Shown here: positions 20,101-49,471 of the stretch, piece after piece
Position numbering within the stretch: position 1 is the first letter of the stretch
Layout: every line of letters starts with the position of its first letter
Assembly (NCBI RefSeq): GCF_000022085.1
Contig: NC_011894.1
Coordinates: 3,623,501-3,687,500, forward strand
Origin: Methylobacterium nodulans ORS 2060
Lineage (GTDB): Bacteria > Pseudomonadota > Alphaproteobacteria > Rhizobiales > Beijerinckiaceae
Reading direction: 5' to 3'
Length of the DNA stretch: 64,000 nucleotides
Made by a program: the position numbers and the translations under genes
The notes under the pieces: model-generated
Databases searched by the model: none
The model's input: the letters and a program-made list of their open reading frames with translations, nothing else
Told to the model about the DNA's origin: nothing

Positions 20101-23100
20101 GGTCCCACCCGCGATCCGATCCGCGGTGATCGAGCCCGCGATGATGCGGTTGGCGTGCAGCGAGCCCGTGCGGATGGTGCCGCCGTCAATGGTGGTCAGG
20201 CCCGGCGGCGAATAGGGCGACACCTCCGTCTGGCCCTCGATGGCCTTGGCGAACATCAGGCCGGACACCATGACGTAGTGCCAGCCCTGACCGTTGATCC
20301 AGGTGTTGCCGAACCGCACCCGCGGCTGCGCGTAGACCGCACCGGCCGGAGCGACGACGATCAGCTTCGAGCGGGCGTACTGGTCCCACTCTTCCACGGA
20401 GTTGTAGAACGAACCCTGCCAGTCCAGGGTCGTCCAATTGCCCCAGGTCTCACCGATGTAACTCTGGTTGTTGTCGAGCCAGATCAAGCCGACAATGGCT
20501 TGGCAGCGGATGGTCGCCAGATAGGCACTGATCTCGTAATACTCGCCGGCCCTGACGGAGATCCTCTCGGCATTGCCGTCCGTCTTCTGGCGGTCGATGT
20601 GGACTTCTGCGATCGTGCCCTGGGCGATGTTCTCCCCGTTGGTACGGCAGCGGAAGGCCCGCATCCCGGCCGGAGCGTGGTTGGTGTCCGTCCCGTCGTT
20701 GACGATCACCGCGCCCGAGTTGCCACCGCCGACCGACCAGCCGGCCACGAAGCCGCTGCTGTCGACGTTGGTGCAGTCGGCATTCGGCGCGAGGTTCAGC
20801 GACGCAACCGCCAGCTTACTGGTCGTGACGGAGCCGGCTGCGAGGTTGCCCGCCTGAATGGTGCCGCCAGCAATGAGGCTGCCCGTGATGGTGCCGCCCG
20901 CGATGTTGGTCCCGGTGATGGTGCTGCCGGCGATCTTGTCGCCGGTGATCGTGCTGCCCGCAATCTCGGTCGCCGTGATGGTGCCGGTGGCGATCTGACC
21001 TGCGGTGATGGACTTCGCGGCGATCTTGGCAGCCGTGATCGCGCCATCCACGATCATCTGAGCGTTGGCAGCTTTCCGCGCCTGCACCTTGCCCCAGTAG
21101 ACGTAGCTGCCATAGGCGTAGGGCTTGTCACACAGCAGGAGCACCTGCATCCGCTGGATGCCTTCGGGGATGGTGATCTGACCCGAGAGATCGACCCATT
21201 GGTTCTTGAGGTCGGTGTAGGCCGCGGTCGGCCACTGGCCGTTCCCCCCGGCGGCATCGGTGAGAACGGCCATGAGGCTGGCCCGCTCGCCGTTTGCGTT
21301 GAAGACGCGCGCCGACAGGTTGATGACGTCGCCCGGCCGCACCGCGATCGGGTCGGAATAGGCGCAGTCGCGTGCATTCGAGCGCAGGCGGTGCATACCG
21401 CCGGGGTCGGTCGCGACCGACGTATCGATGAGCGTGTCGCCGCCGCCGAGAGACCAGCCCTCGGAGTTCGCCGAGCCGTCGATCGGGTTCGTGAAGTCCC
21501 CGTTCTTCAGCATGTTGCTGGGATCGGTGAGGACCAGCTTCGAGGCGGTGACCGATCCGGCCGCCAGCTCGCGCGCAGTCAGCGTCCCGGCGCTGATGTT
21601 CGCCCCCGTGATGGTGTTGCCGGCGATGCGGTCACCCGTGATGGTGGACCCGGCAATCCGGTCACCCGTCAGCGAGTTGACGGCGATCTCGTTCGCGGTG
21701 AGGCTGCCGGTGACGATGTGCCCGGCCCCGATGGTGCGGCCAGAGATGTTGAAGCCCGTGATCGTGGCGCCGGAGATGTTGCCTCCGGTGATCGTCCCGC
21801 CCGCGATACGGTCGCCCGTGATGGCCGAGCCGGCGATCTCGTAGGCGGTGATGGTCCCTGCGGCGAGGTTGGTCGCCGTGATGGTGCGGGCGGCGATCTC
21901 ATTGGTGGTGAGCGTCGCGGCCACGATATGCCCGGCGCTGATCGTCCGGCCGGCGATCAGCCCGCCCGTGATGGTCGCGCCCGCGATCTTGTCGCCCGTG
22001 ATGGTCGAACCGGCAATCTCGGTCGCCGTGATGGCCCCGACCGCGATCTGCCCCGCCGTGATGGTGCGGGCGACGAGCCGGTCCCCGTAGATCGAGCTGG
22101 TGCGGACGTTGCCGCCCTCGATCGTGGTCACGCCCGCGTCGGAGTACGGGCTCGGCTCGGTCTGGCCCTCGACGGCCTGGGCGAAGAACAACCCGCCCGC
22201 CATGCAGTAGGGGTTGCTGCCGAAGTTGTACCAGCGGACCCGGATATCGGCACTGGCGGCGTTGGCCGGCGCGGTGGCGATCACCCAGGAGCGGGCGAGC
22301 CGATCCCAATCCGCCAGTGATGAGCCAGAGCCGAGCTGCGTGGCGACGATGTTGTTGCCGCCGTGCTCGGTGATGTAGGTGCCGGTGGCGTCCCACCAGA
22401 TGATCGACACATAGGCGGTGCAGCGGTGCGCCGAGACGTAGGCCGAGAACTCGTAGCGCGCATTCGGCGTGACCGGGATCCGCTGCTGGGCCCCCGTCGC
22501 ATCCGGGTTGGCGTAGATGATCTCGGAGATGCCGCTCGTCGGCTTGTTGGCATCGTCGTAGCGGACCGAGAAGACCCGCATGCCCTGCGGAGCCCAATCG
22601 GTGCGGATGCCCTCCACGAGCGGAGTGATGCCCGTGCCGCCGGCCGCGCCCCACCAGCCGGAGGTGCCCTGCTGGAGGCCGCCGTTCGCGGCGAGGTTCA
22701 GGCTCGCCACCGCCAGCTTCGAGGCCAGGATCGAGCAAGCTTCGATCTTGTCCGCGTTGACGGCGCCGGTCGCCAGCTTCGGCGTGCTGATGGCGCCGTC
22801 CGTAATCTGGGTCTGAGTGATCTGGCCTGCGAGCTTCGCCGTGCTAATGCCGGCGATCTGCGCGTCCGTGACCTGCCCCTGGAGCACGGCGGCATTGACC
22901 GAGGCCACCTGCGCGGCCACGACCTGTCCGATCAGCTTCGCCGCGCTGATGCCCGCGAGCTGGTCATCCGACAATGTGCCGCTGACCTTGGTCGCGCTGA
23001 TCGCCGCGAGCTGCGCGTCCGTGAGCTGGCCCGTCACGTCGGAGGCCCCGACCCCCGCGGTCCAAGCCCCACCCACCGCGCGGTAGATCTTGCCGTCCGA

Positions 23101-26100
23101 GTTGAGCACCACGGAGGGGCCGGTGTAGCCCGCGAGGCTCGGGAGCCCGTTGACGATGCCGAGGGCGGACAGACCGGAGGCGAGCTTCGACTGGCCAACG
23201 GCGTTGTCGGCGATCTGACTCGCGGCGATCTGGCCGATGAGCTTCGCGGTGCTGATGCCGGCGATCTGGCTATCCGACAGTGTGCCGGCGATCTGGGCCG
23301 CGTTCAGGCTCGCGATCTGGGCGGCCGTGATCTGGCCAGAGATTTGGCCGGCACCGATGCTCGCGATCTGGCTCGCAACCACCTGCCCGACGAGCTTCGC
23401 GGCCGAAACCTGGGCGATCTGGGCGTCCGTGAGGGTGCCGGTGATCTTCGAGGCGGCCAGAGCCGCGATCTTGGCATCCGTGATGGCGCCGGCCGCGATC
23501 TGGGCCTCGCCCAGTTGCCCGGTGATGTCGCCCGCAGCAACGCCGGCGGTCCAGGCCCCGGAGACCAGCCGGTAGACCTTGCCGTCCGCGCCGTTGAGCA
23601 CCACGGACGGGCCCGTGTAGCCGGCCGGGTCCGGCAGGCTGGACACGATCCCGACCGCCGAGAGGCCCAAGGCGAGCTTGGCCTGGGTGACGGCGTTGTC
23701 GGCGAGCTGCGCGGCCGTGAGCTGGCCTTGGATCGCGACCGCATTGATGCTCGCGATCTGATCCGCCGTGAGCTGGCCGGCGACCTTCGTGGCCGCAAGG
23801 CTGACGATCTGGTCGGAGGTGAGTTGCCCGCTGATCTGGGCCGCCGTGATGCTGGCGATCTGCGAGGCGACGATCTGGCCGACAACCTGGGCGGCATTGA
23901 TGCTGGCGATCTGCGAGGCGGTGAGCTGGCCGGCGACCTTCGCTGCCTCAATGGACTGGATCTGGGCGCTGGTGAGGGCGCCCGTGATGTCGACCGCCTG
24001 CACCGCGGTCGTCCACTGCCCACCCACGAGCCGGTAGAGCTTGCCGTCCGTCGCGTTGTAAGCGAGCGCGGGGCCCGTCCAGGTTGCGGGATCCGGCAGG
24101 CTGGTGACCGCGGTCGGCGCCACGACCGAGGCGGCGAGCTTGGTCTGGTCGATGACACCGTTCTGCAGTGCCGCCGCCGGGAGGGCCGCCGTGGTCGCCG
24201 TCTTCGGGCCGACGAAGTCGCCGGCCGTGCCCGAGCTGTTGACCGGCCGGACCCAGTATTTGCGGGTCTGCACGATCTCCAGGGTGGTGTCGCTGAAGAA
24301 GTTGAGCGGCGCTGGGACTGTCGCGAACAGGCTGGCGTCCGCCCCGTCGTCGCGCGTCCCGACCCACACCTCGATCGCGGCAAGGTCCGGGTCGCTCGGG
24401 TTGACCCACGACAGGCTTGCCGTCCGGTAGGCGGCGTCCACGGTGAAGCTCGTGATCGCGCCGGGCTTCGCGGTGTTCTTGGCCGCGGTGATGGTAGCGA
24501 TCGGGGACCAGCCCGAGACCGCCACCCCGCTGTCGTTCACGGTGCGGACGCGGGCCGTGTAGAGAACGCCCGGCTTGAGGTTGCGCCAGGTGAAGGTCGG
24601 CTGGCCCTTGTCGGCGCGGTCACGGATCCAGGACGAGTTCGTGACGCCGTCGCCCTCCGTCAGCTCGAATTCGTAGATCCCGAGGTTGCTGCTGCCGACC
24701 GGGTTCCAGGTCGCGGTGATCGCGGCCGTCGCCACGCCAGTCGCCGAGACTTCCAGATCCGTCGTCAGGTTGAGCCCGGTCGGGATGTCGGGCGCCTGGA
24801 CGTCGATGATCTTGTTGGTGGTGCGGATCTCGACCTGCGGCGAGATGTTCAGCTCGGCCGGGTTCTTGCCGAAGCTGTCGTAGAAGGCGACCCGCACGTA
24901 ATAGGTCGTCTCGGCCTCGGCCGGCAGCAGCAGGAAGCCGGTCGGGGCGACATCGGCCGCAGGGGACGTGGCGAGCGGGTCGAAGTTGCTCGTCTTGGAC
25001 AGCCAGACCAGCACGCCGGCGAGATCGGAGTCCGCCGGCGGGGTCATCCAGACGCCGATGCTCTCCGTCGTCCAGTCCAGCGTCGGGACGACCATGGCGG
25101 GCGCCGGATTGGACACGACGAGCACCGCCGGCTGGCTCTCGCGGCCGATCGCGTCGCGCGCCGCCACCGAGACCCGGAAGCGCCGCCGCGGGCCGCCCTC
25201 GTTGAGGTTCTCCTCGTAGTCGTAGGTCGCCTGCGCGGCGGTGATGATCTCGGTGTGGAGGAGCGCATTCGTGTCCGCGTCGAACACCCGGAAGGCGTAA
25301 CCGACCTCGTAAGGCCTCACGTCCGGCGGCCAGGTCAGGCCCCACTCCAGGGTGCAGCTCCGCCCCGTGAAGACGCTGCCGCCGCCCTTGACCTGCAGGC
25401 CGGTGACGGTGGGCCCGGCAAGCCCTTCCCAGCCCTGGACCGTGTAGGTGATCTGGGCGGCGTCCGACAGGCGCCCGTTCAACCCCTCGGCCTGGACGAT
25501 GAAGGTCCACTCGCCCGTGGCCGCGTCGTCAAAGTCCGCCGAGGTGGTGCTGCGCTTCGGTAGGGTCACCAGCGAGCCGTTCGGCTTAATGGCCGTGACG
25601 TAGTAGGCGACCGAGTTGAAGGGCTGGCCAGCCGTCCAGCTGAGGAGCAGGCTCTGCCGCGGCAGGTTGTTCTCAAAGTAGGTGCTTTCCCTCACCGTGA
25701 GGTTCGTCGGGGCGAGAACGACGTTCGGGAACTCGCTGATGTTCAGCGGCTCGAAGGCCGCGCCATCGTCCACCGCCGCATAGATCGAGGGCTCGTGCTG
25801 GAGCGCCTGGATCCCGCAGATGTGCGGCTCGACCTCCTTGATGCCGACGATCCGGAACAGCTGCGGCACCACCTCGCCGGCGATCTGCCACACCGCCGCG
25901 GCGTCCGGCACGGAAGGCAGGGCGGGCGAGATGCTGACCTCGGTGAGGTCGACGCCGGCCAGCGTCGTGATCTGCCGCTCTGCCACGCTGCCGTCCGGCA
26001 GGGTGACGGAGATCTCGTAGGGCACCCCGCTCTTCAGGGTGACCGGCCGATCGAGGAGGAGGGTCGAGGCCGTCGAGCCGGCCTTGAGGCGCCCGCCGGC

Positions 26101-27681
26101 GTCGATGTTGCTGATCTGCGGGTCGGCGATGGCGATGATGTCGCCGGGGCGCCGCACGGCATGGTCGAGGCCCGCCCGGTAGGTGGCGGTCTGCGTCGCA
26201 TAGTTCTCGACCAGGAGGCGCCACAGGCCCTCGCGATGCGCCTGCCCACGCGAGGTGCAGCCGAGCAGGTCGATCTTGGTCGGGTTGTAGCCGTAGCGGG
26301 CAATGCCCTCGCCGTGCTCAACGACCTCGATCTGCGGCTTGAACAGATTGTCCGGGTCGGTCCAGCTGACCAGCGCCACCGTGTGGCGGGCCTTGCGCCC
26401 CGAGGAGCTGTAGGTGATCAGCCCCTCGATGACGTTGGCTGGCGTGACCAGCTGGCGGACGTCGTCGGGCCGGTCCTGGGTGGCCGTGACCGCGCCCGAG
26501 GACCAGTAGGCCATGCCGCGCCAGATCGCGCTGATCTGCTGGAGCAGGTCGAAGGCGTCCTGCTGAGTGCTGATCTGGGCGTTGAAGCGGAAGCGCGGCT
26601 CCTGGCCGCCCTTGCCGTCCGAGACCAGCACGTCGCAGTAGCGGCCGATCTCGTACAGGGTCCACTTGTCGATGCTCTCGACGCTGATGAACTCGCCGAG
26701 CCCATAGCGGTCGTTCCACAGCACGTCGTAGAAGACCCAGGCCGGATTGTCCGACCACTCCTCCTTGAAGGTGCCATCCCAGATGCCGGAGTAGGTGCGC
26801 GCGACCGGATCGTAGTTCGACGGCACCTTGATGAGCAGGCCGTCCACCAGATAGGTCCGGGCCGGCACCGAGGAGCCGAACTGGCTCGCGTCCGCGGTCA
26901 GGCCGACCAGGGCCGAATGCGGATAGCTGAACTTGGCGTCCTGGATCGCGGTGAGCGAGTAGAAGACGAGATCGCTCTGGCTCGTCCACTTGTCCTGGCT
27001 GGTGTTGAAGCCGTCGGTGTCGTCGGTCAGGCGCGTGACCCGCACCTGCCAGGGCGGGCTCGACCCGGCCGGATTGCGCGGCAGGGCGACCTCGTAGGAC
27101 ACGAAGTAAGGCGAGGTGTTCTTGCCGGTGATGGTGAGGTCGCCAAGCTGGTTCACCCATGGCCCGCCGCTGTAGCGGGCCTCGATCCGGAAGCTGACGC
27201 TGTTCTGGCGGACCGAGCCGTCGTTCTTGGCCAGGAACAGGGCCGGCAGCTCGATGATGACGCGGGCCCGGTCCGCCTCGCCGTCGCTGATCGCGGCGGT
27301 GACCGGCGTCGCCTTGCTGACCTTGACCCCGACCTCCCGCGGCGTCTCCACCTCGGGATAGCCGGGCATGTAGGACTGATCCGGCGTGCCGGTGCGGAAG
27401 TCGGCGCTCAGGCCCTTGAAGTTGAAGGTGCCGTCCGCGTTCTGGACCGGGACGTCGTTGAAGTAGATGCCCTTCAGGCCGCCGACGACGCCCGTGATCT
27501 CGCCCTCGCCGAGCAGGTCCACGAGACGGACCGTCGCGTTCGAGAACAGGGTGTCGGGTGCGCTCGAGCCCGAGCCGCCGGTCTTGCCGCGGCCGGAAGA
27601 GGACTTCCTCCCCCGGATGGGAGCGTCCTGGCGCATGCTGTCCTCCGGCGCGGCGGCCGGATCGAAATCGATGCGGTCCAT
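17116..27681 (-). CDS. Giant tail tip/host-specificity protein J
   Basis: A 3521-aa protein, about three times lambda gpJ. Residues 1-640 are the gpJ core (SNATVRLVDLLGEGEITG; VVGGLKGIYFNDVPVQNADG; DVLWNDRYGLGEF; GDIIAIADPQI). Residues about 650-1170 are fibronectin-III-like domains. About 1170-1660 hold 17-aa repeats of the form LTxxQIxSIxAxxVxGQ, in three blocks separated by GYTGPSVVLN..GK-type modules. About 1660-3170 alternate roughly 150-aa lectin/CBM-like modules with 10-aa repeats (TITADRIAGG type). The C-terminus (about 3170-3521) caps the fibre. It forms the tail tip, contacts the receptor and follows the K/I genes as in lambda. Confidence 0.93.
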   Translation of the reverse strand: MDRIDFDPAAAPEDSMRQDAPIRGRKSSSGRGKTGGSGSSAPDTLFSNATVRLVDLLGEGEITGVVGGLKGIYFNDVPVQNADGTFNFKGLSADFRTGTPDQSYMPGYPEVETPREVGVKVSKATPVTAAISDGEADRARVIIELPALFLAKNDGSVRQNSVSFRIEARYSGGPWVNQLGDLTITGKNTSPYFVSYEVALPRNPAGSSPPWQVRVTRLTDDTDGFNTSQDKWTSQSDLVFYSLTAIQDAKFSYPHSALVGLTADASQFGSSVPARTYLVDGLLIKVPSNYDPVARTYSGIWDGTFKEEWSDNPAWVFYDVLWNDRYGLGEFISVESIDKWTLYEIGRYCDVLVSDGKGGQEPRFRFNAQISTQQDAFDLLQQISAIWRGMAYWSSGAVTATQDRPDDVRQLVTPANVIEGLITYSSSGRKARHTVALVSWTDPDNLFKPQIEVVEHGEGIARYGYNPTKIDLLGCTSRGQAHREGLWRLLVENYATQTATYRAGLDHAVRRPGDIIAIADPQISNIDAGGRLKAGSTASTLLLDRPVTLKSGVPYEISVTLPDGSVAERQITTLAGVDLTEVSISPALPSVPDAAAVWQIAGEVVPQLFRIVGIKEVEPHICGIQALQHEPSIYAAVDDGAAFEPLNISEFPNVVLAPTNLTVRESTYFENNLPRQSLLLSWTAGQPFNSVAYYVTAIKPNGSLVTLPKRSTTSADFDDAATGEWTFIVQAEGLNGRLSDAAQITYTVQGWEGLAGPTVTGLQVKGGGSVFTGRSCTLEWGLTWPPDVRPYEVGYAFRVFDADTNALLHTEIITAAQATYDYEENLNEGGPRRRFRVSVAARDAIGRESQPAVLVVSNPAPAMVVPTLDWTTESIGVWMTPPADSDLAGVLVWLSKTSNFDPLATSPAADVAPTGFLLLPAEAETTYYVRVAFYDSFGKNPAELNISPQVEIRTTNKIIDVQAPDIPTGLNLTTDLEVSATGVATAAITATWNPVGSSNLGIYEFELTEGDGVTNSSWIRDRADKGQPTFTWRNLKPGVLYTARVRTVNDSGVAVSGWSPIATITAAKNTAKPGAITSFTVDAAYRTASLSWVNPSDPDLAAIEVWVGTRDDGADASLFATVPAPLNFFSDTTLEIVQTRKYWVRPVNSSGTAGDFVGPKTATTAALPAAALQNGVIDQTKLAASVVAPTAVTSLPDPATWTGPALAYNATDGKLYRLVGGQWTTAVQAVDITGALTSAQIQSIEAAKVAGQLTASQIASINAAQVVGQIVASQIASITAAQISGQLTSDQIVSLAATKVAGQLTADQIASINAVAIQGQLTAAQLADNAVTQAKLALGLSAVGIVSSLPDPAGYTGPSVVLNGADGKVYRLVSGAWTAGVAAGDITGQLGEAQIAAGAITDAKIAALAASKITGTLTDAQIAQVSAAKLVGQVVASQIASIGAGQISGQITAAQIASLNAAQIAGTLSDSQIAGISTAKLIGQIAASQIADNAVGQSKLASGLSALGIVNGLPSLAGYTGPSVVLNSDGKIYRAVGGAWTAGVGASDVTGQLTDAQLAAISATKVSGTLSDDQLAGISAAKLIGQVVAAQVASVNAAVLQGQVTDAQIAGISTAKLAGQITQTQITDGAISTPKLATGAVNADKIEACSILASKLAVASLNLAANGGLQQGTSGWWGAAGGTGITPLVEGIRTDWAPQGMRVFSVRYDDANKPTSGISEIIYANPDATGAQQRIPVTPNARYEFSAYVSAHRCTAYVSIIWWDATGTYITEHGGNNIVATQLGSGSSLADWDRLARSWVIATAPANAASADIRVRWYNFGSNPYCMAGGLFFAQAVEGQTEPSPYSDAGVTTIEGGNVRTSSIYGDRLVARTITAGQIAVGAITATEIAGSTITGDKIAGATITGGLIAGRTISAGHIVAATLTTNEIAARTITATNLAAGTITAYEIAGSAITGDRIAGGTITGGNISGATITGFNISGRTIGAGHIVTGSLTANEIAVNSLTGDRIAGSTITGDRIAGNTITGANISAGTLTARELAAGSVTASKLVLTDPSNMLKNGDFTNPIDGSANSEGWSLGGGDTLIDTSVATDPGGMHRLRSNARDCAYSDPIAVRPGDVINLSARVFNANGERASLMAVLTDAAGGNGQWPTAAYTDLKNQWVDLSGQITIPEGIQRMQVLLLCDKPYAYGSYVYWGKVQARKAANAQMIVDGAITAAKIAAKSITAGQIATGTITATEIAGSTITGDKIAGSTITGTNIAGGTITGSLIAGGTIQAGNLAAGSVTTSKLAVASLNLAPNADCTNVDSSGFVAGWSVGGGNSGAVIVNDGTDTNHAPAGMRAFRCRTNGENIAQGTIAEVHIDRQKTDGNAERISVRAGEYYEISAYLATIRCQAIVGLIWLDNNQSYIGETWGNWTTLDWQGSFYNSVEEWDQYARSKLIVVAPAGAVYAQPRVRFGNTWINGQGWHYVMVSGLMFAKAIEGQTEVSPYSPPGLTTIDGGTIRTGSLHANRIIAGSITADRIAGGTITAGQIAGGTITGDKIAGRTISAGNLVSGTITANEIAGRTITADRIAGGTITAYEIASRTITASQIATGTLTANELAAGSVTTSKLAVSSANFAFNADMAQGLAGWTAGGQTWGGTPDIFVETGWVPSGFKGFAGYGTGWTGAGGQWFDTWHQRIDTSNNLQAFPCYPNTPYEFSAYVTCHRCDAQMHVLWLDSAGNAIRYDGSNVIGQFAKVGGALTDYPRMAILATSPSNAYGFKVLYRGQNITAAGPLIFVVGAMYAAARAGQAECSPYVDPGVTTITGTNITTGSIYGDRLVARTITAGQIAVGAITATEIAANTITADQIAGSTIIGWNIQARTLGAGHIAAGAITAYEIAANTITANQIAGQTIIGWNIAGNTISADKLVANSITAGQISAGAIGVDQLAAGAITADKIGVGLNSTNLLYNSDFRAGTPGVNNWGGGTVPGIYGTWSNLGDLGNRAPYIGLNQSGPGWQPNGMGSLQVSCAGTPPAGYVWDTYASTPKQDGTWSQRFPVVAGKRYEVSGYVSAHRCKAHLIIVWMDANDAYCGEAWTNTVENAMSNGNLSAWARMGCFATAPSNAATAAIYLRTTFNGGDGPYTFWSGLYFGQAKPNQAEYSDWAPGSSTVIWGDTIATGTMNANKITAGTITADRIAANAITGYQIAGTTISGWHIQSNSIYADKIQVGGGQSLTSWMGSDTTKINGGAIEANSIRVNALTVALRGVRTVGIDFSVDKNTRTVSWTGGHVLWIDDAGNNVASWCPGGSGNAGATLCYIWWDKRRPNQLNFAANNWPDIFADKNTVLMCSYDGYAGLNPTYGGTIIDGSRINTGTITANQIAANAIQASHIAAGQITAEKIGAGQVTADKIGAGMITAGVIQIGGNNFVLEAPNNTGLGRMYCRDSNGTLRVAVGYINDLSGGGWGLAMWDDASNLILNGTGVNGGGLWVNSVSANKLSVTQLSAITANVGTMTAGLLQSGDGQMQVDLNNKRIIIWG

Positions 27682-38296: not shown

Positions 38297-38711
38297 TGTT
38301 GCGGCCCAGGCTGTCCTGGCCAACGAATCCGTACTCGAGCCGTCGCGCGTAGGCGGTGGTGTAGGCCGCAGTGATCACGTCGCCGGCATGGGCGGTGGCG
38401 ATGGTGCTGATCACCATGCTCTCATCCCATGTCGTGGTGGGGTGCTTGGGCTCCTCCTCGCGCGGCTGCGGCGGCGGGCCGTTGACCACGACGACAAGCG
38501 AGGCGCGCAGGGCGCCGGTATCCAGGGGCACGTAGCTGCCCGGGGTCTGCATCAGCTGGATCAGGCGCAGGGTCGCCGTCCGGAACACGGCATCCATGCG
38601 CGCCTTGGTCTGCTGCACCCAGGCGTCCACGTCGGCAGCAAACCGGGCCTGCCCCTGCGACGCTCGTCCGGAACGAAGGAAGACGCCTGCGGTGGGTCCG
38701 GAGCTCGCCAT
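38163..38711 (-). CDS. HK97 gp10-like head-tail/tail-completion protein
   Basis: A 182-aa protein. MRLIQLMQTPGSYVPLDTGA-like segment, DTGALRASLVV and the conserved AAYTTAYARRLEYG motif of the HK97 gp10 family, then a basic C-terminus. Start M at 38711 overlaps the previous stop (TGATG). Located between the MuF-like protein and the terminator; probably helps join head and tail. Confidence 0.75.
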   Translation of the reverse strand: MASSGPTAGVFLRSGRASQGQARFAADVDAWVQQTKARMDAVFRTATLRLIQLMQTPGSYVPLDTGALRASLVVVVNGPPPQPREEEPKHPTTTWDESMVISTIATAHAGDVITAAYTTAYARRLEYGFVGQDSLGRNINQAGLGWTRRAAQQWPRLVEEAARDAQAAVAANQAGQNRPRRR

Positions 38712-39718
38712 CAGGTGAGCCCCGCAAAGAAGTCGACGGCCGTCGACATCCAGCACCGGCAGCACACGGTCTCCTCTGCTGGGGCCGCCGGATCGCACGG
38801 ATAGGCGAGGAAGGCGCCAGAAGGTGACCGAAACATCGAGCGGAACGGCACGCGCTGTCCGTCGAGCACGCTGTGGGTATGGCGCACGCGCTCATCCTTG
38901 GCCGAGTGCCACACCTTCGACACCAGCGCCTCGCTCACCTCGCCCCGCTCAATCATCTGCCGGGCCGACTCGAACGCTGCCGCGTTCATCGCCCGCAGCG
39001 TCTCGGTCCTGGCGATGGTGATGGCGCGGTGCCGCAGGGCGCGATTGCGGTAGGCGGCGACCAGCTTGGTGATCGTCTCGGCTGGAATCGGCTGCCCGCT
39101 CTTGATCGCCTTCGTGACTGCGCCGTCAAAACGGCGGTCCCTGAGCTTCCGCGTCAGCGCCGCCGGATTGCCACTGGCAAGCTCCTCCGCGTAGCGGCGG
39201 CACCAGCCCTCCTGGCTCGCCGTCAGACCAATCGCGCCGCCCTCACGCCGCCCTGTGGCGGGGTTGATGCGGCCGACGAGATCCAGCGCCGTCGCCTTCG
39301 GGTTGCGACCCGCCGCGGTGCCGGCAGCGAGAACATCACGGATCAGAACGCGCTGGTCGTCGGTGATCTCGCGGATGAGCGTGCTGGAATACGAGCGCAG
39401 CCATCCCTCCGCGGTGGGGTTGCGCATGTCGAACTGCACGACAAAGCGCGATTGGCCCGGCACCTTCGCGCCCGCAGCGGCGTTCTCGCCGCCTGCCTCG
39501 TAAGCGTCCGAGATGGCGCGATCGAGCGGGCGGAACGAGGCCGGGTTGATCTTGAGTTCGGCCAGGATGCCGTCCACGTCATTCGCCTCCGCGAGTTCCA
39601 CCAGCCGCGCCATTCTGGCCGGATTGCGGATCGTGCGAATGCTCTCCTCGAAGGCTTTGCGGACCTCCGGCTCCCATTTGGCGACGAGATCGGGGATGCG
39701 GATCGGTGTCCGAGCCAT
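38711..39718 (-). CDS. Minor head protein, SPP1 gp7/MuF-like
   Basis: A 335-aa protein with the C-terminal MuF signature: ARTETLRAMNAAAFESARQM, WHSAKDERVRHTHSVLDGQR, YPCDPAAPAEETVCCRCW (Arg-His-Leu-Asp-Gly and Pro-CRC blocks). These proteins are packaged in the capsid and aid DNA ejection. It is placed after the connector genes rather than right after the portal, a mild departure from the common order. Confidence 0.85.
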   Translation of the reverse strand: MARTPIRIPDLVAKWEPEVRKAFEESIRTIRNPARMARLVELAEANDVDGILAELKINPASFRPLDRAISDAYEAGGENAAAGAKVPGQSRFVVQFDMRNPTAEGWLRSYSSTLIREITDDQRVLIRDVLAAGTAAGRNPKATALDLVGRINPATGRREGGAIGLTASQEGWCRRYAEELASGNPAALTRKLRDRRFDGAVTKAIKSGQPIPAETITKLVAAYRNRALRHRAITIARTETLRAMNAAAFESARQMIERGEVSEALVSKVWHSAKDERVRHTHSVLDGQRVPFRSMFRSPSGAFLAYPCDPAAPAEETVCCRCWMSTAVDFFAGLT

Positions 39719-39948
39719 CACGCCCGCTCCCGGCAGGGGCCGAGCCCGCAGACAGCGCAGTGGCTCGGGGCGGTCTTGTCCTGGGCCAACAGGATCTCGC
39801 GGCACACCGCCGGGCCGGGACGGCTCGCGGACGGGGAGATGATGAGCAAGGCGACCTCGCAGGGCACGACCGCGCGGATCGCCTCGGCGGCCGCCTCGGC
39901 CGCCCGATGGCCATCGCGACCCGGGTCGGGGACGATCAGAACGCGCAT
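39718..39948 (-). CDS. Small Cys-rich phage protein
   Basis: A 76-aa protein ending APSHCAVCGLGPCRERA, a possible small zinc-binding knuckle (C..C....C). N-terminal Rossmann-like start (MRVLIVPDPGRDGHRAAEAA). Both ends overlap the neighbours by one to four nucleotides, so it belongs to the head-tail operon. Function unknown. Confidence 0.6.
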   Translation of the reverse strand: MRVLIVPDPGRDGHRAAEAAAEAIRAVVPCEVALLIISPSASRPGPAVCREILLAQDKTAPSHCAVCGLGPCRERA

Positions 39949-41359: not shown

Positions 41360-42313
41360 TCAGATCCCGTCGAGGTAGCGGAAAGCGCCGGGGCGCCGGA
41401 TGTCGACGCCGCCCAGGCGGAAGGCGCCGGGCACGTCGAAGCGGAAGGGCCCGGTCTGCCACGCCGGGAAGAACCGGAAGGGCATGGGCATCCAGAGCTT
41501 CACGACCTCCGGGTCGCGCAGGTACGCGACCATTCGGGCGGTCCCGCCGGCGCCCGCCGTCTCCAGGCCGCGCACGCCGAACACGTTGAGCGGCTGGCCG
41601 GTCTCGATGGTGTAGACGTTCTTCCGCTGGATCCAGTCCAGCAGAGTCATCTGGTTGTACTGGTCGATGCGCCGCAGGCTCAGCGCGATCATCTGCTCGT
41701 AGGGCAGCAGCGCCGTGTCCGCCAGCTCGACGGTGTTGGAGCCGGTGAAGATGCCGGTCAGCAGCCCGTTGACGTCGGCCAGCACAAGCTCCGGATCCTT
41801 ATCGGCCCAGCGCGTGCTGCCGCCCGCGCCCGTGGGAGCCGCCGAACCCTGGGTGACGGCCGGGCTGTTGACGAGGCCGCTGTAGCCCTTGGCCGGGTCA
41901 CCGAACAGGGCAACCCGGTCGATGAACTCCTCGGAGGCACGCCGCGCGGCCGCGGCCTTGTCCGCCGAGAGGCTCATGTTCATCAGCTGCGCCTTGCCGA
42001 GCTCCTCGAGGTCGTAGCCGTAGCCGATGCCGGCCATCGAGACCGTGGTCTCGAACTGGCTGCGGAGCACGTCGGCCCGCGGCACGTCGTTGGCCTGGCC
42101 GGTGATCCACTTGGCGGCCCCGACCTGATCCAGCGAGAAGTAGGTGACCGAGGGGATCCACTCGGGGGCGTTGGTGTCCACCGGGACAAGCCGCGGGTAG
42201 CGGATCTCGGGGTACCGCGTCCGATACACCTGGGGCTCGATGAACGTCTGCTGGCTGACCAGGAAGGCCAGAGCACGGCGCATGTCGGCATCAGTGAAGA
42301 ACTGGCCTCGCAT
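41360..42313 (-). CDS. Major capsid protein (DUF2184 family)
   Basis: A 317-aa protein: MRGQFFTDADMRRALAFLVS, IRYPRLVPVDTNAPEWIPSV, YGYDLEELGKAQLMNMSLSA, DRVALFGDPAKGYSGLVNSP. This is the DUF2184 capsid type with a HK97-like fold expected. It is followed by connectors and preceded by a decoration protein and a DUF2213 protease, the normal order for this family. Confidence 0.9.
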   Translation of the reverse strand: MRGQFFTDADMRRALAFLVSQQTFIEPQVYRTRYPEIRYPRLVPVDTNAPEWIPSVTYFSLDQVGAAKWITGQANDVPRADVLRSQFETTVSMAGIGYGYDLEELGKAQLMNMSLSADKAAAARRASEEFIDRVALFGDPAKGYSGLVNSPAVTQGSAAPTGAGGSTRWADKDPELVLADVNGLLTGIFTGSNTVELADTALLPYEQMIALSLRRIDQYNQMTLLDWIQRKNVYTIETGQPLNVFGVRGLETAGAGGTARMVAYLRDPEVVKLWMPMPFRFFPAWQTGPFRFDVPGAFRLGGVDIRRPGAFRYLDGI

Positions 42314-42870: not shown

Positions 42871-44091
42871 TTACTGCGCCGCCTGACCGGGCCGCTCCTT
42901 GTAGGCGTTGGTGAGATAGTCGACGTTCGCTGCGTAAGCGTCCGCGAGGACGTTCTGACCGCCGGCCGGCTTGATGCCGTCCGCGATGGTGCGGGCGAGG
43001 GGATCGGCCGGCTTGTGGTCCTTGGCGATCGCCAGGAAGGCGCCCTCGACCGCGCCGTCCGTGAGATCCTTGGCGCTGTCGCCGAGGCGGGCGGACACGA
43101 CCTCGCGGCGGATCTGGGCGTCGGTCTTGCCGGCATCCGTGAAGGTCGCGCCGATCACGCTCTTGGCCACGTCGATGACGCTGGCACGCGCCGCCACCGC
43201 GGCCGCCAGCTTATCGGGCGTAAGGGCCGCATCCTCGACCTGCTTCTTGAGGACCGCGATCTCGCCGTCCTTGGCCTCGATGGTCTTGCGCGCCTCGGCG
43301 AGCTCGCCATCCTTCGCCTCGATCGCCCGGGCGTGGGTCGAATTCGCCTCGTTCAGCTGCGTGGTGAGCGACACGTTGTCCGTCGTCAGCTGGCCGATCT
43401 GCTTCTGCAGGCCGGACACCGCGACCACCGCAGCGTCGCTCATCTCGACGGTGTGGCCGTCGATTGTCAGGGTCTTCATGGGGATGGCATCCCTCTGCTG
43501 TTGCTGGTCGGAGAGCACCCGCATGGTCTTCACGTCGGCGGGGTGCTGATCGCCGATGCGGCAGTCGGGGCCGGCCCGCCCGCGATCCACGATCGCGACG
43601 TGATCGACCACGATGTTGGTCTGGCGGGCGTCGTAGGGCCGCCCATCCGGGGTGGTGCCGGGGGTGAAGTCGAGGTCGCAGGTGTAGCCGACCGACAGCT
43701 CTCGCTTGCCGTTCTTGACGGCCTCGATGGCGCCCTGGTCCGCGATGAGCATCGGGATCCGGACGAACTCGCCGTCGCGCAGCACCTCCTCGCCGACGTG
43801 CCCTCGCGCCACGCTCCGCCAGGTGGCCGGGGTGACGGGGGAGGACGGGTGATCGAGGGTGACCGGCTTGTGGCCGAAGGTGCGCAGGGAATCGGCCCGG
43901 AATACCTCGTCGGCGTCTCGGTAGATCCGGACGATCGGCATCTCGGGCTTGCCCACCTCGGCGCCCTGGTAGAGCTGCACGTTGCCCCCCTGGGCGGCCT
44001 TGGCCTGGACGACGAGCGAGCCGTTGCGCATCTCGCGTGCGTTCGCGATCTCGGCGGCCTCGCCGAGCGACAGGTGATCGAAGAACTGCAT
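42871..44091 (-). CDS. DUF2213 prohead protease/scaffold
   Basis: A 406-aa protein. N-terminal DUF2213 domain (about 1-175; LRTFGHKPVTLDHPSSPVTP, GHVGEEVLRDGEFVRIPMLI, KRELSVGYTCDLDFTPG, DHVAIVDRGRAG with candidate catalytic residues His in LDHP and Ser in ELSVGY). Then a coiled-coil scaffold part (about 215-300) and helical C-terminus. Met205 (ATG at 43479) with GAGGGAT upstream could be an internal start giving a 202-aa scaffold alone, as in lambda C/Nu3. Confidence 0.82.
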   Translation of the reverse strand: MQFFDHLSLGEAAEIANAREMRNGSLVVQAKAAQGGNVQLYQGAEVGKPEMPIVRIYRDADEVFRADSLRTFGHKPVTLDHPSSPVTPATWRSVARGHVGEEVLRDGEFVRIPMLIADQGAIEAVKNGKRELSVGYTCDLDFTPGTTPDGRPYDARQTNIVVDHVAIVDRGRAGPDCRIGDQHPADVKTMRVLSDQQQQRDAIPMKTLTIDGHTVEMSDAAVVAVSGLQKQIGQLTTDNVSLTTQLNEANSTHARAIEAKDGELAEARKTIEAKDGEIAVLKKQVEDAALTPDKLAAAVAARASVIDVAKSVIGATFTDAGKTDAQIRREVVSARLGDSAKDLTDGAVEGAFLAIAKDHKPADPLARTIADGIKPAGGQNVLADAYAANVDYLTNAYKERPGQAAQ

Positions 44092-44232: not shown

Positions 44233-44634
44233 TCACCTCTTCCACATCGACACCATCTCGATCCGTCGTTTCGCACGCTGAACCTCCCCGATGTAGGTAT
44301 AGGTTCGCCCGCGGATCGACTTCTCAATGATGATTCGCGGCTGGCCATTCGCTGGGTTCGGGTCACCCGGCAAGAGTCTGTCCGGCTGCCGAACGATCTC
44401 GCGAGCGAGTGCGAAATCCAGCTGTGTGATGGCGACTTGGCCGCGCGCTGCCTCAGCTTTTGCATTGCCATGCTTCTTCAGCGTGTGGCTAATACCATCC
44501 TGTGAGATCGAGTGCCGGAAGCCTCGAACGTCGATGTTAGTCAATCTGCCGATTTCGCCCGACCGCGACACCCGACCCAACGAGGCGCGCAGCACGCCGG
44601 AACGTGGCTGGCCAACAGCCTCGAGGAGTTGGGC
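44233..44634 (-). pseudogene. C-terminal nuclease domain of the split portal gene (PBECR-like)
   Basis: 133 codons with no proper start, ending at the stop at 44233. The segment NIDVRGFRHSISQDGISHTL, KKHGNAKAEAARGQVAITQL and YIGEVQRAKRRIEMVSMWKR matches phage Barnase-EndoU-ColicinE5/D-RelE-like nuclease domains. It begins exactly at the IS630 target TA. Joined to the portal ORF at 45695 it continues in frame (WTSGL then AQLLEAVG), for a full protein of about 789 aa. It is now separated from its promoter and start. Confidence 0.8.
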
Positions 44635-45696
44635 TAGAGCGGGGTCCGAGCGGGTTGAAACCGTGGTGATGGCAACGCGTTGGCCGGTCCCCGGGGGGGC
44701 GGCTCAACGGAGGTGGCCCATGCCCTCAGCTTTGTCTGTCGACCTGCGCCAGCGCGTCGTCTCGGCCGTTGCAGAAGGCGCCTCCTGCCATCAGGCCGCC
44801 GCGCGCTTCGGGGTCAGCGTGGCCAGCGTCAGCCGCTGGTCCAGGCAGCAGGAGGGCCAGGGAGATGTCACGCCCAAGCCCATGGGCGGCGACCAGCGCT
44901 CGCAGCGCATCGAGGCTCATGCCGAGCTCATCCTGCAGACCTACCAAGCCCACCCGCAGAGCTTCCTGCATGAGCTCTGCGAGACGCTCCAGGAGCAAGG
45001 CGTTCCGGTCAGCCGCAGTAGCCTGTCGCGCTTCTTCGCCCGGCACCGCATCACGCGGAAAAAAGGGCGACGTACGCAGCTGAGCAGGAGCGGGAGGATG
45101 TAAAGGCGGCTCGTGAGGCGTGGTTTGCCGGCCAGCTTGAGCTGGATCCGGAGCGACTGGTGTTCCTGGATGAGACCGCCGCCACCACCAGCATGGTCCG
45201 CCGCTACGGCTGGGCCCCGCGCGGCGAGCGTTGCCGCCTCGCGGCACCCGCAGGGCACTGGAAAACCACCACTGTGATTGCCGGGCTGCGCACGAGCGGG
45301 CCTGACGCGATCGCTCTGCTGGACGGCCCTGTGACGGGCGAACGCTTCCGCGCCTACGTGACCGACACCCTGGTCCCCACCCTGAGACCCGGCGACACCG
45401 TGATCCTGGACAATCTGGGCGCTCACAAGGTGGCCGGCGTGCGCGAGGCGATCGCGGCAACCGGGGCCCGGCTGCTTTATCTTCCTCCGTACTCACCTGA
45501 GTTCAACCCGATTGAGCAGGCCTTCGCCAAGCTGAAAGCGCTGTTGCGCAGGGCGGCGGCCCGCAGTGTCAGTGAACTCTGGGCGGCGATCCACCAAGCC
45601 TTCAAATGCTTCTCGCCGGCTGAGTGCCGCAACTACTTCACAGCTGCTGGATACGAGGATGATGCTTACGCTTCAACCTGATCGGGAGCGGCTCTA
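44635..45696 (+). mobile_element. IS630-family insertion sequence
   Basis: About 1062 bp including a duplicated TA at each end (44635-44636, 45695-45696), the IS630 target. Imperfect terminal inverted repeats: left TAGAGCGGGGTCCGAGCGGG(TTGAA), right, read inward, TAGAGCCGCTCCCGATCAGG(TTGAA). It holds one transposase in two frames. It interrupts a phage portal-type gene. Confidence 0.88.
44720..45681 (+). CDS. IS630-family transposase (two frames, -1 frameshift)
   Basis: Frame one (44720-45103, 127 aa) has the HTH part (LSVDLRQRVVSAVAEGASCH; QAAARFGVSVASVSRW). Frame two continues to 45681 with the DDE domain: VFLDETAATTSMVRRYGWAP (D), TVILDNLGAHKVAGV (D), YLPPYSPEFNPIEQAFAKLK (E). They join by a -1 slip at AAAAAAG (45059-45065): after RKK the reading continues RATYAAEQEREDV, as expected for the family. 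GGAGG precedes the ATG. Confidence 0.85.
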
Positions 45697-47662
45697 GGCC
45701 AGAGGTCCACCGCCCGCGCGCGTCACGCCGCTGGTTCGGGTTGTACGCGTCCCGAAAAGGGAGGGTGGCGTTCGGCCCACCTCCCAGGCTGTCCTCGGCG
45801 AGCCTTGCCCGCCAGTTCTCGGTGATCGGCTCGAAGATCTCCGGCCCGAACACGAGCGGCCCGTTGTAGGGCTGGACCTGATCCAGATCGACGCCGTCGG
45901 CCGAGAGCGCGAAGCTGACGTGCGGCTGGTAGTCCGGGTGGTCCCACGCCGCGCCGGCGTCCCGGATCTCCTGCCAGCGCCAGCGCAACTCGCTGGATGA
46001 GAACAGCAGAACGACGACATCGCCGAAGCGCTCGACGAGGCGCGGCCCGCCAGCCTCGACCTTGAGCTCGGCGCCCTGCCAGGTCGGGCCGACCGCCATC
46101 CAGTCCACGGGCTGGCGGCTGTAGGCGATGGTCACGTGGAGCTCACCGGCCGGATAGAGATCGGTGAAGCCCTGGCTCTTCGCCCAGGCGAGGAGATCGG
46201 CGCCATTGAGCAGCTTGCGGCTGACGTAGAGCGTGCGGGGCGCGGCATCGGCAACCTGCTGGCCGCCGGCCACTCGGCCGCGGAGCGGGACCACGTTGCC
46301 GGTGCCGGTGAAGCCCTCGGCCGGCTGGCCGTCCGGCCCGAACTGGTCGGCGTCGAGCTCGCCCTCGGTCAGCGGCGCGTCGCCGTGCTCCTCATAGGCT
46401 GCGTCGATACCCGGGAAGAGGCCGCTGTCGACCGCGGCGCCCTTGGTGCCTTGCGCGAGGATTTCCAGAGGCGCGAGCTTAGCCTTGGCGAGGACCGCCA
46501 CCGCGTCCGCCACCGTCTTGAAGGCGTCGGCCTTCTCCTTCTGGGTCGGCTGGTAGAGCGGGTTCCACTCGTACCAAACCTCGGGCGGACGGGCGCCGAG
46601 CGCGTGGCGGATCAGCAGCTCGTCGAGGCGGCGGATCGCCGGGGTGAGCTCCACCTTCTGCCGGGCCGCCACGTGGTCGTAGTAGTTGCGGGTGTCGCTG
46701 TCCCCAGTGGCGTTGAGACCGGACGGCGACTGGCCGAGCAGGCGTGTCGCCGGGATGTCGGCCGCGCCGGCCGCGATGAGCAGGAACAGCCGCACCACGT
46801 CGGGCAGGCCAGCAAAGCTGATCTGCTTCTGCTCGAACACCTCGCCGTCGGGGCTCTTCCCATCGCCCTCCAGCAGGAGCATGCCGAACATGCTCTTCAT
46901 CCGGGCGGCGTAGGCGAAGCGGTCGGTGAGCCGCCGGGTGCCCTCCTCGGTCGAGAGATGCTGCGACAGGCCCGGGACGCTGATGACGTCCTGCTTGGCC
47001 TCGGGCAGCATGGCGTTGACGTAGGCGGCCGAAGACGTGGCCTGGTCCACGGCCTCGAACACGGCCTGCAGCACGCTGTCGCCCCAGCCCCGCTCGGTCG
47101 CGCTCTGCACGCTCTCCAGAATGGGCGCGCCGATGAGACGGACCACGCGGGAGGGGTGGATCGCCTGCTGGCCGCGCGTCGCGCTGACGAGCTGCCAGGA
47201 CACGGGCTCCCCGAACCAGGGCGAGGCCGGATCCCGGTCCGGCTCGCCGGGCGTGATCTCCTCCCGGCCGAGCACGTGGAGGTAGCGGATGCTGCCCTTG
47301 CCCAGGCGCTCCGGCACCAATGGCTGCGCCGGATCCGACGCTCCATCACCGATGAGGAGCGCTGCGCCGCCGTCGCGCCGGGCCATCCGCAGGCCGTCGA
47401 GCAGCTTCTGCCGGACGCCGAGCGCGGTTTCCGCTGCCTCGATCGCCTCGACCTGCGCATCCTCCGCCTTCCAGGCGCGCCACTCGCGCAGCATGTCGAA
47501 GGCGACCACGTCCACGACCTTGCGGGCGATCCAGTTGCCCCGATAGGCCGCCTGGATCTCGGGCAGGGGCCGCGGGACGAAGACGTGGACGTTGCCGACC
47601 GTCTTGTCCTTGGCCGTGCCGAGGCCGGAGATCAGGTTGAAGAGGTTGTCGACGAGCCACAT
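45638..47662 (-). CDS. Portal protein (DUF1073) fused to Acb1-like 2H domain, C-terminus cut by IS630
   Basis: A 674-aa ORF whose last 18 residues come from the IS. Residues about 1-430 form the DUF1073/phage_portal_3 domain (RPLPEIQAAYRGNWIARKVV; IHPSRVVRLIGAPI; YYDHVAARQKVELTPAIRRL; WNPLYQPTQKEKADAF). Residues about 485-625 carry two H-x-[ST] motifs, HVTIAY (H509) and HVSFAL (H581), the 2H-phosphoesterase pattern of Acb1, which degrades CBASS cyclic nucleotides. Then NPNQRRDARGRWTSG, a typical phage linker. The family link is from memory; activity is inferred. Its ATG overlaps the TerL stop. Confidence 0.87.
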   Translation of the reverse strand: MWLVDNLFNLISGLGTAKDKTVGNVHVFVPRPLPEIQAAYRGNWIARKVVDVVAFDMLREWRAWKAEDAQVEAIEAAETALGVRQKLLDGLRMARRDGGAALLIGDGASDPAQPLVPERLGKGSIRYLHVLGREEITPGEPDRDPASPWFGEPVSWQLVSATRGQQAIHPSRVVRLIGAPILESVQSATERGWGDSVLQAVFEAVDQATSSAAYVNAMLPEAKQDVISVPGLSQHLSTEEGTRRLTDRFAYAARMKSMFGMLLLEGDGKSPDGEVFEQKQISFAGLPDVVRLFLLIAAGAADIPATRLLGQSPSGLNATGDSDTRNYYDHVAARQKVELTPAIRRLDELLIRHALGARPPEVWYEWNPLYQPTQKEKADAFKTVADAVAVLAKAKLAPLEILAQGTKGAAVDSGLFPGIDAAYEEHGDAPLTEGELDADQFGPDGQPAEGFTGTGNVVPLRGRVAGGQQVADAAPRTLYVSRKLLNGADLLAWAKSQGFTDLYPAGELHVTIAYSRQPVDWMAVGPTWQGAELKVEAGGPRLVERFGDVVVLLFSSSELRWRWQEIRDAGAAWDHPDYQPHVSFALSADGVDLDQVQPYNGPLVFGPEIFEPITENWRARLAEDSLGGGPNATLPFRDAYNPNQRRDARGRWTSGLEPLPIRLKRKHHPRIQQL

Positions 47663-49134
47663 CAGCCGGTCACCGCCAGCATGCCGTAGGCCGGTTTCGC
47701 GACCTCGCCGAAGGCGCGCGACAGCGCATCGACCTGGTCCTTGAAGGCGCCGTTCGGGAAGGACGCGACCTCATCGAGGAAGGCGTCGTTCCAGGCCCCC
47801 TCGACAAGCACGATGTTGCCCGCCTCGGCCTGGGCGGAGACCGGCTCGGCCCGGGTGACCTTGTCCCCGCTCTCAGGCGTGGCCCGCACGACGAAGCCCT
47901 CGAGCTGGCGGATCAGATACTGCGCCTGGGCCTTGCCGGCCTGCCCAGGATCCTGGGGGAGCGAGATGCGGCAGTCGCGGCCGTCCTGCTGGGCCGTGTT
48001 GACGATCATGCGCTCCACCCCGCCGGGCGACAGCCGATCCCGGCGCACGTCCGCGATGTAGAGCCGCTTGTCCGGGCCGCGCCCGAGCTTCAGGCCGGCG
48101 GTGTAGGCGGGCTGGCTGCCCTGCTTGGCCTCGCTGGCGGCGAGGTCCCAGGCCCGCACCCAGACGCAGCCCGCCGGCGCGGCGCGCACGACGGAGAACC
48201 AGGAGCGCTTGAACAGGCCGCCCTCGCGCGGGGCCGGGCGCTGCTGGTACTGCCCCGCGTAGGCGTAGGAGCCGGCATCGCGCTTCAGCGCCTCGACGGT
48301 GGCGCGCGGGAATCGCACCGGGTCGAGGAGCTCGCCGTCCTGCGTCCGCGGGTCGACGAAGAAGGGCGTCCGGCACCGCCGCTCCGGCTCGAACTCCATC
48401 GGCAGGCAGAGGTGGGTGTAGCCCATGCCGAGCTTCAGGATCGTGCCCGAGATGTCGTCCTCGTGCAGGCGCTGCATCACCACCACGATCGCCGATCGCT
48501 CCTGGTCGTTGAGGCGGTTGATCGCGCCCTCGCGGAACTTGCGGGTGGTCCGGTTGCGCTCGGCCGCGCTCTCGGCGGTCTCCGTGCTATGGGGATCGTC
48601 AATCAGCAATCTGTCCCCACGCTGCGAGGTGAGCGATCCGAACGGCACGCCCTCGCGGGTCCCCGTCGAGCTGTTCGCGAAACTCGTCTCGCCGGCGCGG
48701 CTCAACACGACCTCGGGCCACAGGCGGCGGTACCAGGGCGACAGGACGAGGTCGCGCATCTTGCGGGTGTCGCGCGTCACCGGCCCGTCGTTGAAGGCGG
48801 TGGCGAGGTAGCGCAGGGAGCGCCGCCCCTTCGGGCCCCACTCCCAGGCCGGCCAGATCACCGAGACGACGAGGCTTTTCGACGAGCCGGGCGGCACGTT
48901 GATCAGGAGCCGGTTCAGCCGCCCGGCCGTGATCGCCTCGAGGTGGACGCAGAACGCGTCAAGGTGCCAGTTCCAGATCAGCGGGGCGTTGGGCTCCAGA
49001 ACGTGCCAGGCCTCGCGCACGAACCCGGCGAGGGATTGGCAGCGGGCCCGGATGACCTCGGCGTCGCGGTCGAGGGCTTGCCGTTGGGCCTCAGCCGTCC
49101 GCCGGGCCCTCTCCTCCCTCACCATCCTCAGCAT
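47662..49134 (-). CDS. terL: Terminase large subunit
   Basis: About 490 aa. ATPase domain with Walker A at about 81-87 (NVPPGSSKSLVVSV) and Walker B at about 176-180 (RLLIDDPHSTETAE), motif ERSAIVVVMQRLHEDDISG, then a nuclease domain (VWVRAWDLAASEAK). It packages DNA through the portal. The start is uncertain: in-frame starts exist at 49194, 49134 and 49125, none with a clean ribosome site, and it overlaps the small subunit gene. 49134 (MLRMVREERA) is a compromise. Confidence 0.9.
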   Translation of the reverse strand: MLRMVREERARRTAEAQRQALDRDAEVIRARCQSLAGFVREAWHVLEPNAPLIWNWHLDAFCVHLEAITAGRLNRLLINVPPGSSKSLVVSVIWPAWEWGPKGRRSLRYLATAFNDGPVTRDTRKMRDLVLSPWYRRLWPEVVLSRAGETSFANSSTGTREGVPFGSLTSQRGDRLLIDDPHSTETAESAAERNRTTRKFREGAINRLNDQERSAIVVVMQRLHEDDISGTILKLGMGYTHLCLPMEFEPERRCRTPFFVDPRTQDGELLDPVRFPRATVEALKRDAGSYAYAGQYQQRPAPREGGLFKRSWFSVVRAAPAGCVWVRAWDLAASEAKQGSQPAYTAGLKLGRGPDKRLYIADVRRDRLSPGGVERMIVNTAQQDGRDCRISLPQDPGQAGKAQAQYLIRQLEGFVVRATPESGDKVTRAEPVSAQAEAGNIVLVEGAWNDAFLDEVASFPNGAFKDQVDALSRAFGEVAKPAYGMLAVTG

Positions 49135-49471
49135 CACCGCCGGCGGTGCCGGCAAGCGGACCGAGGAGAGCTTCGAGCGCGTCAAGCTGCTCATTCGTGG
49201 CCCTGGTCAGGTCGGCGGTGAGGATTGGCCCGTTGTTCGGTCCAGTGTGGGCCACCGCCTGAAGGCGAGGGTGCATGTAGGGGGCAGCATCCTTGGCGAG
49301 CGCCGCGGCCTGATCCCAGCGCCGAGCCTTCGCGTGGCGGCGCATGGCGGTCAGCATCACTTCGAGGGGCGATATGCCCTCGGCCGATGCGCGGGCGACG
49401 ATCTCCTGCGACCGCCGCGTGATGGAGCCCTTCTTACGCCCGGCACCGGCGCGCCTACCGCCGTGCGCCAT
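49091..49471 (-). CDS. Terminase small subunit-like DNA-binding protein
   Basis: A 126-aa protein with a basic N-terminus (GGRRAGAGRKKGSITRRSQE) typical of TerS-like proteins, a helical middle (EVMLTAMRRHAKARRWDQAA) and an acidic tail. It precedes and overlaps terL, the standard position. It would recognise the packaging site. Confidence 0.78.
   Translation of the reverse strand: MAHGGRRAGAGRKKGSITRRSQEIVARASAEGISPLEVMLTAMRRHAKARRWDQAAALAKDAAPYMHPRLQAVAHTGPNNGPILTADLTRATNEQLDALEALLGPLAGTAGGDAEDGEGGEGPADG

Follow-up and report, generated by a model that had tools for sequence, protein, structure and literature searches.

A prophage portal protein with Acb1-type and PBECR3 domains, split by an IS630-family element directly behind a recurrent junction motif

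Can the portal, the DNA gate of tailed phages, which is seldom regarded as a carrier of counter-defence enzymes, act as one? The question is raised by a prophage of Methylobacterium nodulans ORS 2060, found in a window of 64,000 nucleotides (the whole stretch analysed; NC_011894.1, positions 3,623,501 to 3,687,500, forward strand) on the 7.77-Mb contig of an 8.84-Mb genome in 8 contigs. Here a gene that encodes a portal, an Acb1-type 2H domain and a PBECR3 nuclease-type domain is interrupted by an insertion sequence (IS) of the IS630 family. The pieces of the split gene, in window coordinates and with open reading frames (ORFs) from a program-made list, are:

45698-47662, minus strand: portal-Acb1 part, 655 codons ahead of the IS (ORF list, sequence, Pfam)
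44637-45694, plus strand: IS630-family element, 1058 bp, within the gene (genome copies, profile search)
44720-45103, plus strand: first ORF of the IS, putative N-terminal transposase part (read from listed ORF 44327-45103)
45160-45681, plus strand: DDE transposase ORF of the IS (PF13358, E 3.5e-35; NF033545, E 1.5e-41)
44233-44634, minus strand: cut-off C-terminal part, 133 codons and a stop (ORF list, sequence)

The original prediction, made from the letters and the ORF list, held that exact excision of the IS would restore one frame, and both the sequence and the list bear this out. The 655-codon portal frame is open up to the codon CTA at 45697-45695, just past which the IS begins; on the far side the portal phase resumes at 44634 with AQLLEAVGQPR and runs for 133 codons to 44236, followed by TGA at 44235-44233. 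Removing the IS together with one TA, which make up the 1060 bp from 44635 to 45694, joins the two in a single phase of 789 codons (655 + 1 + 133). The portal-Acb1 and nuclease parts were kept separate in all searches and in folding, and the single phase rests on this arithmetic.

The inserted element is well defined. TA flanks it at 45695-45696 and 44635-44636, as it does on both sides of all eight IS sites compared (the window included), and the 1058-bp core (44637-45694) is identical in seven other fetched genomic copies; altogether, counting that of the window, 14 genomic copies agree fully (100%) over 1064 bases or more. The family DDE transposase, read on the plus strand and thus opposed to the portal gene, and the TA target duplication place the element in IS630. 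The copies show an apparent preference for CTAG, seven of the eight sites reading CTA...TAG and the eighth CTA...TAA. A further copy of this IS (G000:C7:6362661-6363725) is found upstream of another Acb1 domain in the genome, that of portal locus L002 (G000:C7:6360356-6360787), at a distance of ~1.9 kb. As a result of the insertion, the nuclease part is now without its original start and carrier. The listed 674-residue ORF (45638-47662) takes in codons from the IS side at its end, and the PBECR3 domain lies whole within a listed 120-residue ORF with a GTG start (44233-44595), the sole listed ORF that holds it in frame.

The domains and the motif between them are arranged as follows:

46496-47560, minus strand: portal domain PF06381 (Phage_portal_3), residues 35-389, E 6.7e-125
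45806-46237, minus strand: Acb1-type 2H domain PF23474, residues 476-619, E 2.6e-40
45698-45745, minus strand: junction motif YNPNQRRDARGRWTSG, residues 640-655, between Acb1 and nuclease (alignment, motif scans)
44239-44556, minus strand: PBECR3 nuclease-type domain PF18812, E 5.6e-16

All three Pfam matches exceed their curated cut-offs, PF23474 with 137.9 bits against 27 and PF18812 with 58.9 bits against 30, and the portal is identified by profile (PF06381 / TIGR01555) as well as by its portal fold. The 2H domain has the two H-x-[ST] motifs that had been read from the letters, H509-x-T511 and H581-x-S583. Across 123 Acb1 rows, H509 and T511 are invariant (123/123 each) and H581 and Ser/Thr583 are kept in 122/123 each, the last residue of the tetrad being Ser in the window protein; E608 is likewise conserved in 123/123. 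A structural match of this region to Acb1, on which the prediction depended, was found: its fold resembles that of FBB1 Acb1, and the Acb1 entry 7t26 is also recovered by sequence (E 7.8e-6 with the whole upstream part, 8e-7 with the domain alone). For PBECR3, the predicted model has a predicted local distance difference test (pLDDT) score of 94, and its structure matches are of RelE/BrnT type, a tentative indication of a BECR/RelE fold. The text of PMC5512222 describes PBECR domains as having a His in the N-terminal helix and a C-terminal Ser/Thr; in our 15 PBECR3 rows, residue 55 is His in 15/15 and residue 129 is Thr in 11 and Ser in 4. The MuF domain, PF04233, is absent from both the portal and the nuclease parts in the Pfam scan, MuF being another gene.

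Uninterrupted homologues show the same order. With residues 470-655 as query, 835 proteins were found, and among the 120 of these that were listed, precomputed domains place PF18812 in four and the ADP-ribosyltransferase PF03496 in two; a search with the tail of P0021 yielded seven proteins, the query included. Pfam finds portal, Acb1 and PBECR3 in this order, all above cut-off, in seven intact proteins (P0002, P0021, P0063, P0078, P0122, P0125 and P0126), which thus do not end at the WTSG linker. Profiles, models and these homologues agree with the domain identities and order first proposed, and because of the Pfam scores and the uninterrupted homologues, chance is excluded. PBECR3 stays under the cut-off of 30 in P0091 (23.1 bits) and P0035 (22.6 bits), and P0023 has an alignable tail, yet no PBECR3 match. 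Among cultivable Rhizobium phages, the portal of RHph_Y55 aligns with query residues 5-626, the Acb1 region included.

The two modules are also found apart. P0121 has portal and PBECR3 with no Acb1, P0124 has PBECR3 and an inorganic pyrophosphatase domain with no portal, and the PBECR3 cassette stands behind a MuF domain in P0123, L007 and L008. Both are rare in relatives: PBECR3 occurs in 4 of 99 genomes (3 above cut-off) and Acb1 in 3 of 99, the host's own genome counted each time. That genome has four Acb1 loci, of which the other three stop within a few residues of Acb1, and 106 of 122 homologues, some possibly incomplete, have no tail of at least 60 residues after Acb1. This spread over homologues, MuF proteins and the Rhizobium phage RHph_N28_2 suggests that Acb1 and PBECR3 are modules independently gained and lost, and that PBECR3 can exist as a separate gene, too. 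The stand-alone PBECR3 of RHph_N28_2 (MN988516.1, 7320-7679; 119 residues) lies directly after the portal and is annotated as hypothetical. Portals with Acb1 are named 'anti-CBASS protein Acb1 family protein' in sequence databases (CBASS, cyclic oligonucleotide-based antiphage signalling system). Six such proteins of 944-1086 residues (P0002, P0010, P0011, P0018, P0019 and P0020) have in common a tail block around 'VESFVAAHPKGRAHALRxLAADHKAG' that no Pfam family matches; in P0019 and P0020, which end in an ADP-ribosyltransferase, the block has diverged.

Immediately ahead of the IS, the portal carries the junction motif YNPNQRRDARGRWTSG, and a block of the same type precedes PBECR3 in the intact homologues. 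A loose form of it, R-x(1-9)-G-[RKQ]-[FW], chosen after the tails were seen, follows Acb1 in all 16 portal-Acb1 proteins whose tail has 60 or more residues and in none of the 106 with a shorter one (window protein excluded); there are 18 matches in 4,158 tail residues as against 9 in the 73,751 residues before the end of Acb1. A strict form, the back-translated QPRDxxGRW, was scanned in IMG/VR and gave at least 120 stretches, with 128 matches in those 120 loci. Among the stretches listed, 113 of these 128 matches lie in open frames of at least 140 codons, or 104 once identical contexts are dropped, as compared with just 12 distinct contexts for the 58 matches of two codon-permuted controls, which gave 14 and 44 stretches. 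In a scan of 58 distinct canonical ORFs from these stretches, 23 Pfam families were matched, which can overlap on one protein: ADP-ribosyltransferase 9, MuF 8, three portal families 5, 4 and 1, kinase-like 3, zeta toxin 2, topoisomerase IB 2, prohead protease 1 and Acb1 1. PHROGs profiles label the motif ORFs as portal, minor head, head morphogenesis and head maturation protease, some of these labels sharing one MuF domain. Literature searched under several spellings did not contain the motif, a narrow basis for calling it unreported, and the main text of the MuF toxin paper (PMC5576092) never mentions a motif, linker or cleavage.

On viral contig L027 (695-2583, plus strand), three tandem effector-like genes each have QPRDxxGRW before the effector domain, in the order kinase-like, ADP-ribosyltransferase, kinase-like; the ADP-ribosyltransferase and one kinase-like match are above cut-off and the other is just below. 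In L129 the motif is directly ahead of a topoisomerase IB domain. A second motif class (e.g. RARxKLQPRDKKGRW) lies 19-31 residues from the start of frames of 907-2562 codons (L024, L025, L063, L092 and L118).

Where would such additions be located in a virion? The closest solved protein by sequence is the portal of cyanophage Pam3 (8hds_A; query residues 4-622, E 1.2e-134). The deposited structure models 442 of 621 residues, of which 391 align within residues 30-432, and therefore at most ~50 are elsewhere; since almost all modelled residues align in that range, there is no room for a complete model of the Acb1 part (469-617), which is thus flexible or removed. The text of the E217 paper has the C-terminal barrel of the portal project into the head, with residues 97-528 of 765 built, and that of the Pa193 preprint gives portal residues 529-765 as being without discernible density. 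From these three structures we infer that C-terminal additions to portals probably face the head interior, where they would be flexible or removed.

The reading we favour, and consider rather probable, is that of a siphovirus-type portal with Acb1-type 2H and PBECR3 add-ons on flexible linkers, which are carried within the head or are active in the producing cell. Each portal subunit would bring its add-on enzymes to the head vertex as a flexible arm, and because the C-termini of the portal ring would point into the head interior, the add-ons would ride inside the head or work in the producing cell. The 2H arm would destroy cyclic-oligonucleotide alarm signals and the PBECR3 arm, as a RelE/barnase-type ribonuclease (RNase), would cut RNA, acting in the producing cell, once ejected from the virion, or at both stages. 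The original prediction had the fusion delivered with or built into the virion; this, like both enzymatic functions, we infer. The junction motif would most simply be a hinge, or a processing or loading site for cargo attachment, and the neighbouring head protease might free the cargo there, which is the step that we find most attractive and that is least shown. In this lysogen, insertion of the IS just behind the motif would leave portal and Acb1 joined in a single ORF, extended by a short stretch of foreign codons, so that the portal could still work, and the stranded nuclease would be producible only from a new start, e.g. the listed GTG. Much more tentatively, the QPRDxxGRW-type junction may be a head-cargo signal of many phages, with portals, MuF proteins and effectors as exchangeable carriers within one cargo system; the cargo would then probably be cut free in the head and an Acb1/RNase load injected with the DNA. 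If true, a portal with Acb1 and swappable cargo (PBECR3, ADP-ribosyltransferase and other tails) would be an assembly protein serving as a delivery platform, and the motif would provide a sequence handle for finding such cargo in many phages.

Several points weigh against an enzyme-laden, delivering portal. A portal remains in the virion after ejection, so delivery requires cleavage. In RHph_N28_2, a PF06381 portal without an Acb1 match is followed by PBECR3 as the next annotated gene, and fusion is thus not required. Position 611, mapped by sequence alignment alone to the adenine-contacting Glu of Acb1 (E141 in the text of PMC9117128), is Glu in 66 of 123 rows. Among the head genes of this prophage the canonical motif is only on the portal; the loose pattern has 20 matches in six frames, of which one falls at the start region of the major head protein and another within the tail fibre, both lacking the PRD...GRW form. 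The gap between the nuclease and protease genes holds no complete ORF of at least 80 residues, the minimum of the ORF list, and hence no evident immunity gene. A SMODS-type CD-NTase (cGAS/DncV-like nucleotidyltransferase) was not found in the host genome with the one Pfam family searched, and no CBASS partner is shown.

Acb1 might instead act only in the producing cell, where free late portal subunits would degrade CBASS signals, nothing would be injected and the motif would be only a flexible linker. CBASS senses late structural proteins of phages, and the portal gene, with those for terminase, protease and capsid around it, belongs to the structural set; the domain keeps its Acb1 catalytic residues, and portals are left behind after DNA ejection. 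However, the same motif heads effector-like genes and MuF proteins in other phages, a distribution more in keeping with a packaging-linked role than with a bare linker, and a free RNase cargo would be expected to damage the phage's own production. We regard this explanation as possible but doubtful.

It is quite improbable that 2H and PBECR3 are catalytically idle and serve in the portal crown as structural or RNA/nucleotide-binding components. The text of PMC5512222 does describe an inactive PBECR in Mu gpF, and the modules are dispensable for the portal, since the 106 short-tailed homologues of the 122 (for a tail behind Acb1), P0121 (for Acb1) and the RHph_N28_2 portal (for both) do without them, but the catalytic tetrad is conserved almost completely over the 123 Acb1 rows and the His and Ser/Thr in 15/15 PBECR3 rows. 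Hardly any weight attaches to the idea that the nuclease was never part of the portal gene and that the IS joined both by chance, even though three sister Acb1 loci of the same genome stop right after Acb1 and PBECR3 is its own gene behind the RHph_N28_2 portal. The linker motif before the IS and the PBECR3 behind it are one block in uninterrupted homologues, frame and TA duplication concur, seven other copies share the exact IS core, and the DDE ORF of the element encodes a transposase; chance joining is contradicted.

The surroundings are those of a phage assembly module, with the following head genes next to or near the portal:

47662-49194, minus strand: terminase large subunit (Pfam and PHROGs)
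42871-44091, minus strand: head maturation protease (DUF2213), gene next to the portal (Pfam, phrog_530)
41360-42313, minus strand: major head protein (phrog_264)
38711-39805, minus strand: MuF head protein, a separate gene, 364 residues (phrog_3517; PF04233, E 1.9e-13, its sole Pfam domain)

The minus strand of the window carries a head and tail module that includes a major tail protein and a tape measure (Pfam and PHROGs profiles), and because of the tail families found in it we judge the prophage to be of siphovirus type. The C-terminal half of the head maturation protease may be coiled-coil-like, to judge from weak Pfam matches only. A central tail fibre J-type protein of 3521 residues (17116-27681, minus strand; phrog_31, E 1.2e-263) is matched in its later part by several PHROGs in 5 to 8 stretches.

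Portal fusions of this kind are already known, so although the domain identities and order of the original prediction stand, the idea of the fusion is not new. The text of Iyer et al., 2017 (PMC5512222) describes fusions of PBECR and of 2H domains with MuF and with portals, portal-2H and portal-PBECR among them, and suggests degradation of nucleotide signals; that of the 2022 NAD-ADPr (NAD-ADP-ribose) survey (PMC9503650) reports the portal-2H fusion again. These are the same kinds of fusion, with the same proposal of packaging and of countering nucleotide signalling, although both texts, figures aside, name two-way fusions and leave the three-module order and the junction motif unmentioned. 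Judged by titles only, the further papers found that pair Acb1 or anti-CBASS with portal include none on a portal-Acb1 protein. Acb1 of T4/FBB1 (7t26; text of PMC9117128) shares its fold and HxT/HxT tetrad with our domain, in which its stacking Tyr and lid Trp probably have counterparts, but is a small separate protein (a 144-residue chain in 7t26), whereas here the domain is at the C-terminus of a portal and its activity is predicted. The Pam3 portal (8hds_A) combines portal and Acb1 as here, but its chain ends at 621 with no nuclease tail, and the deposited model contains little or nothing of its Acb1 part. MuF polymorphic toxins, as presented in the text of PMC5576092, resemble our case in being head proteins with a C-terminal toxin-type domain; here, however, the portal acts as carrier, a separate gene encodes MuF and no immunity ORF is evident. 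RHph_N28_2 likewise has a PF06381 portal followed by PBECR3, but as two genes and with a portal without Acb1. Beyond these systems, the present analysis contributes the three-module portal, a cassette that MuF proteins have as well, the absence of the C-terminus from a solved relative and, most of all, the junction motif.
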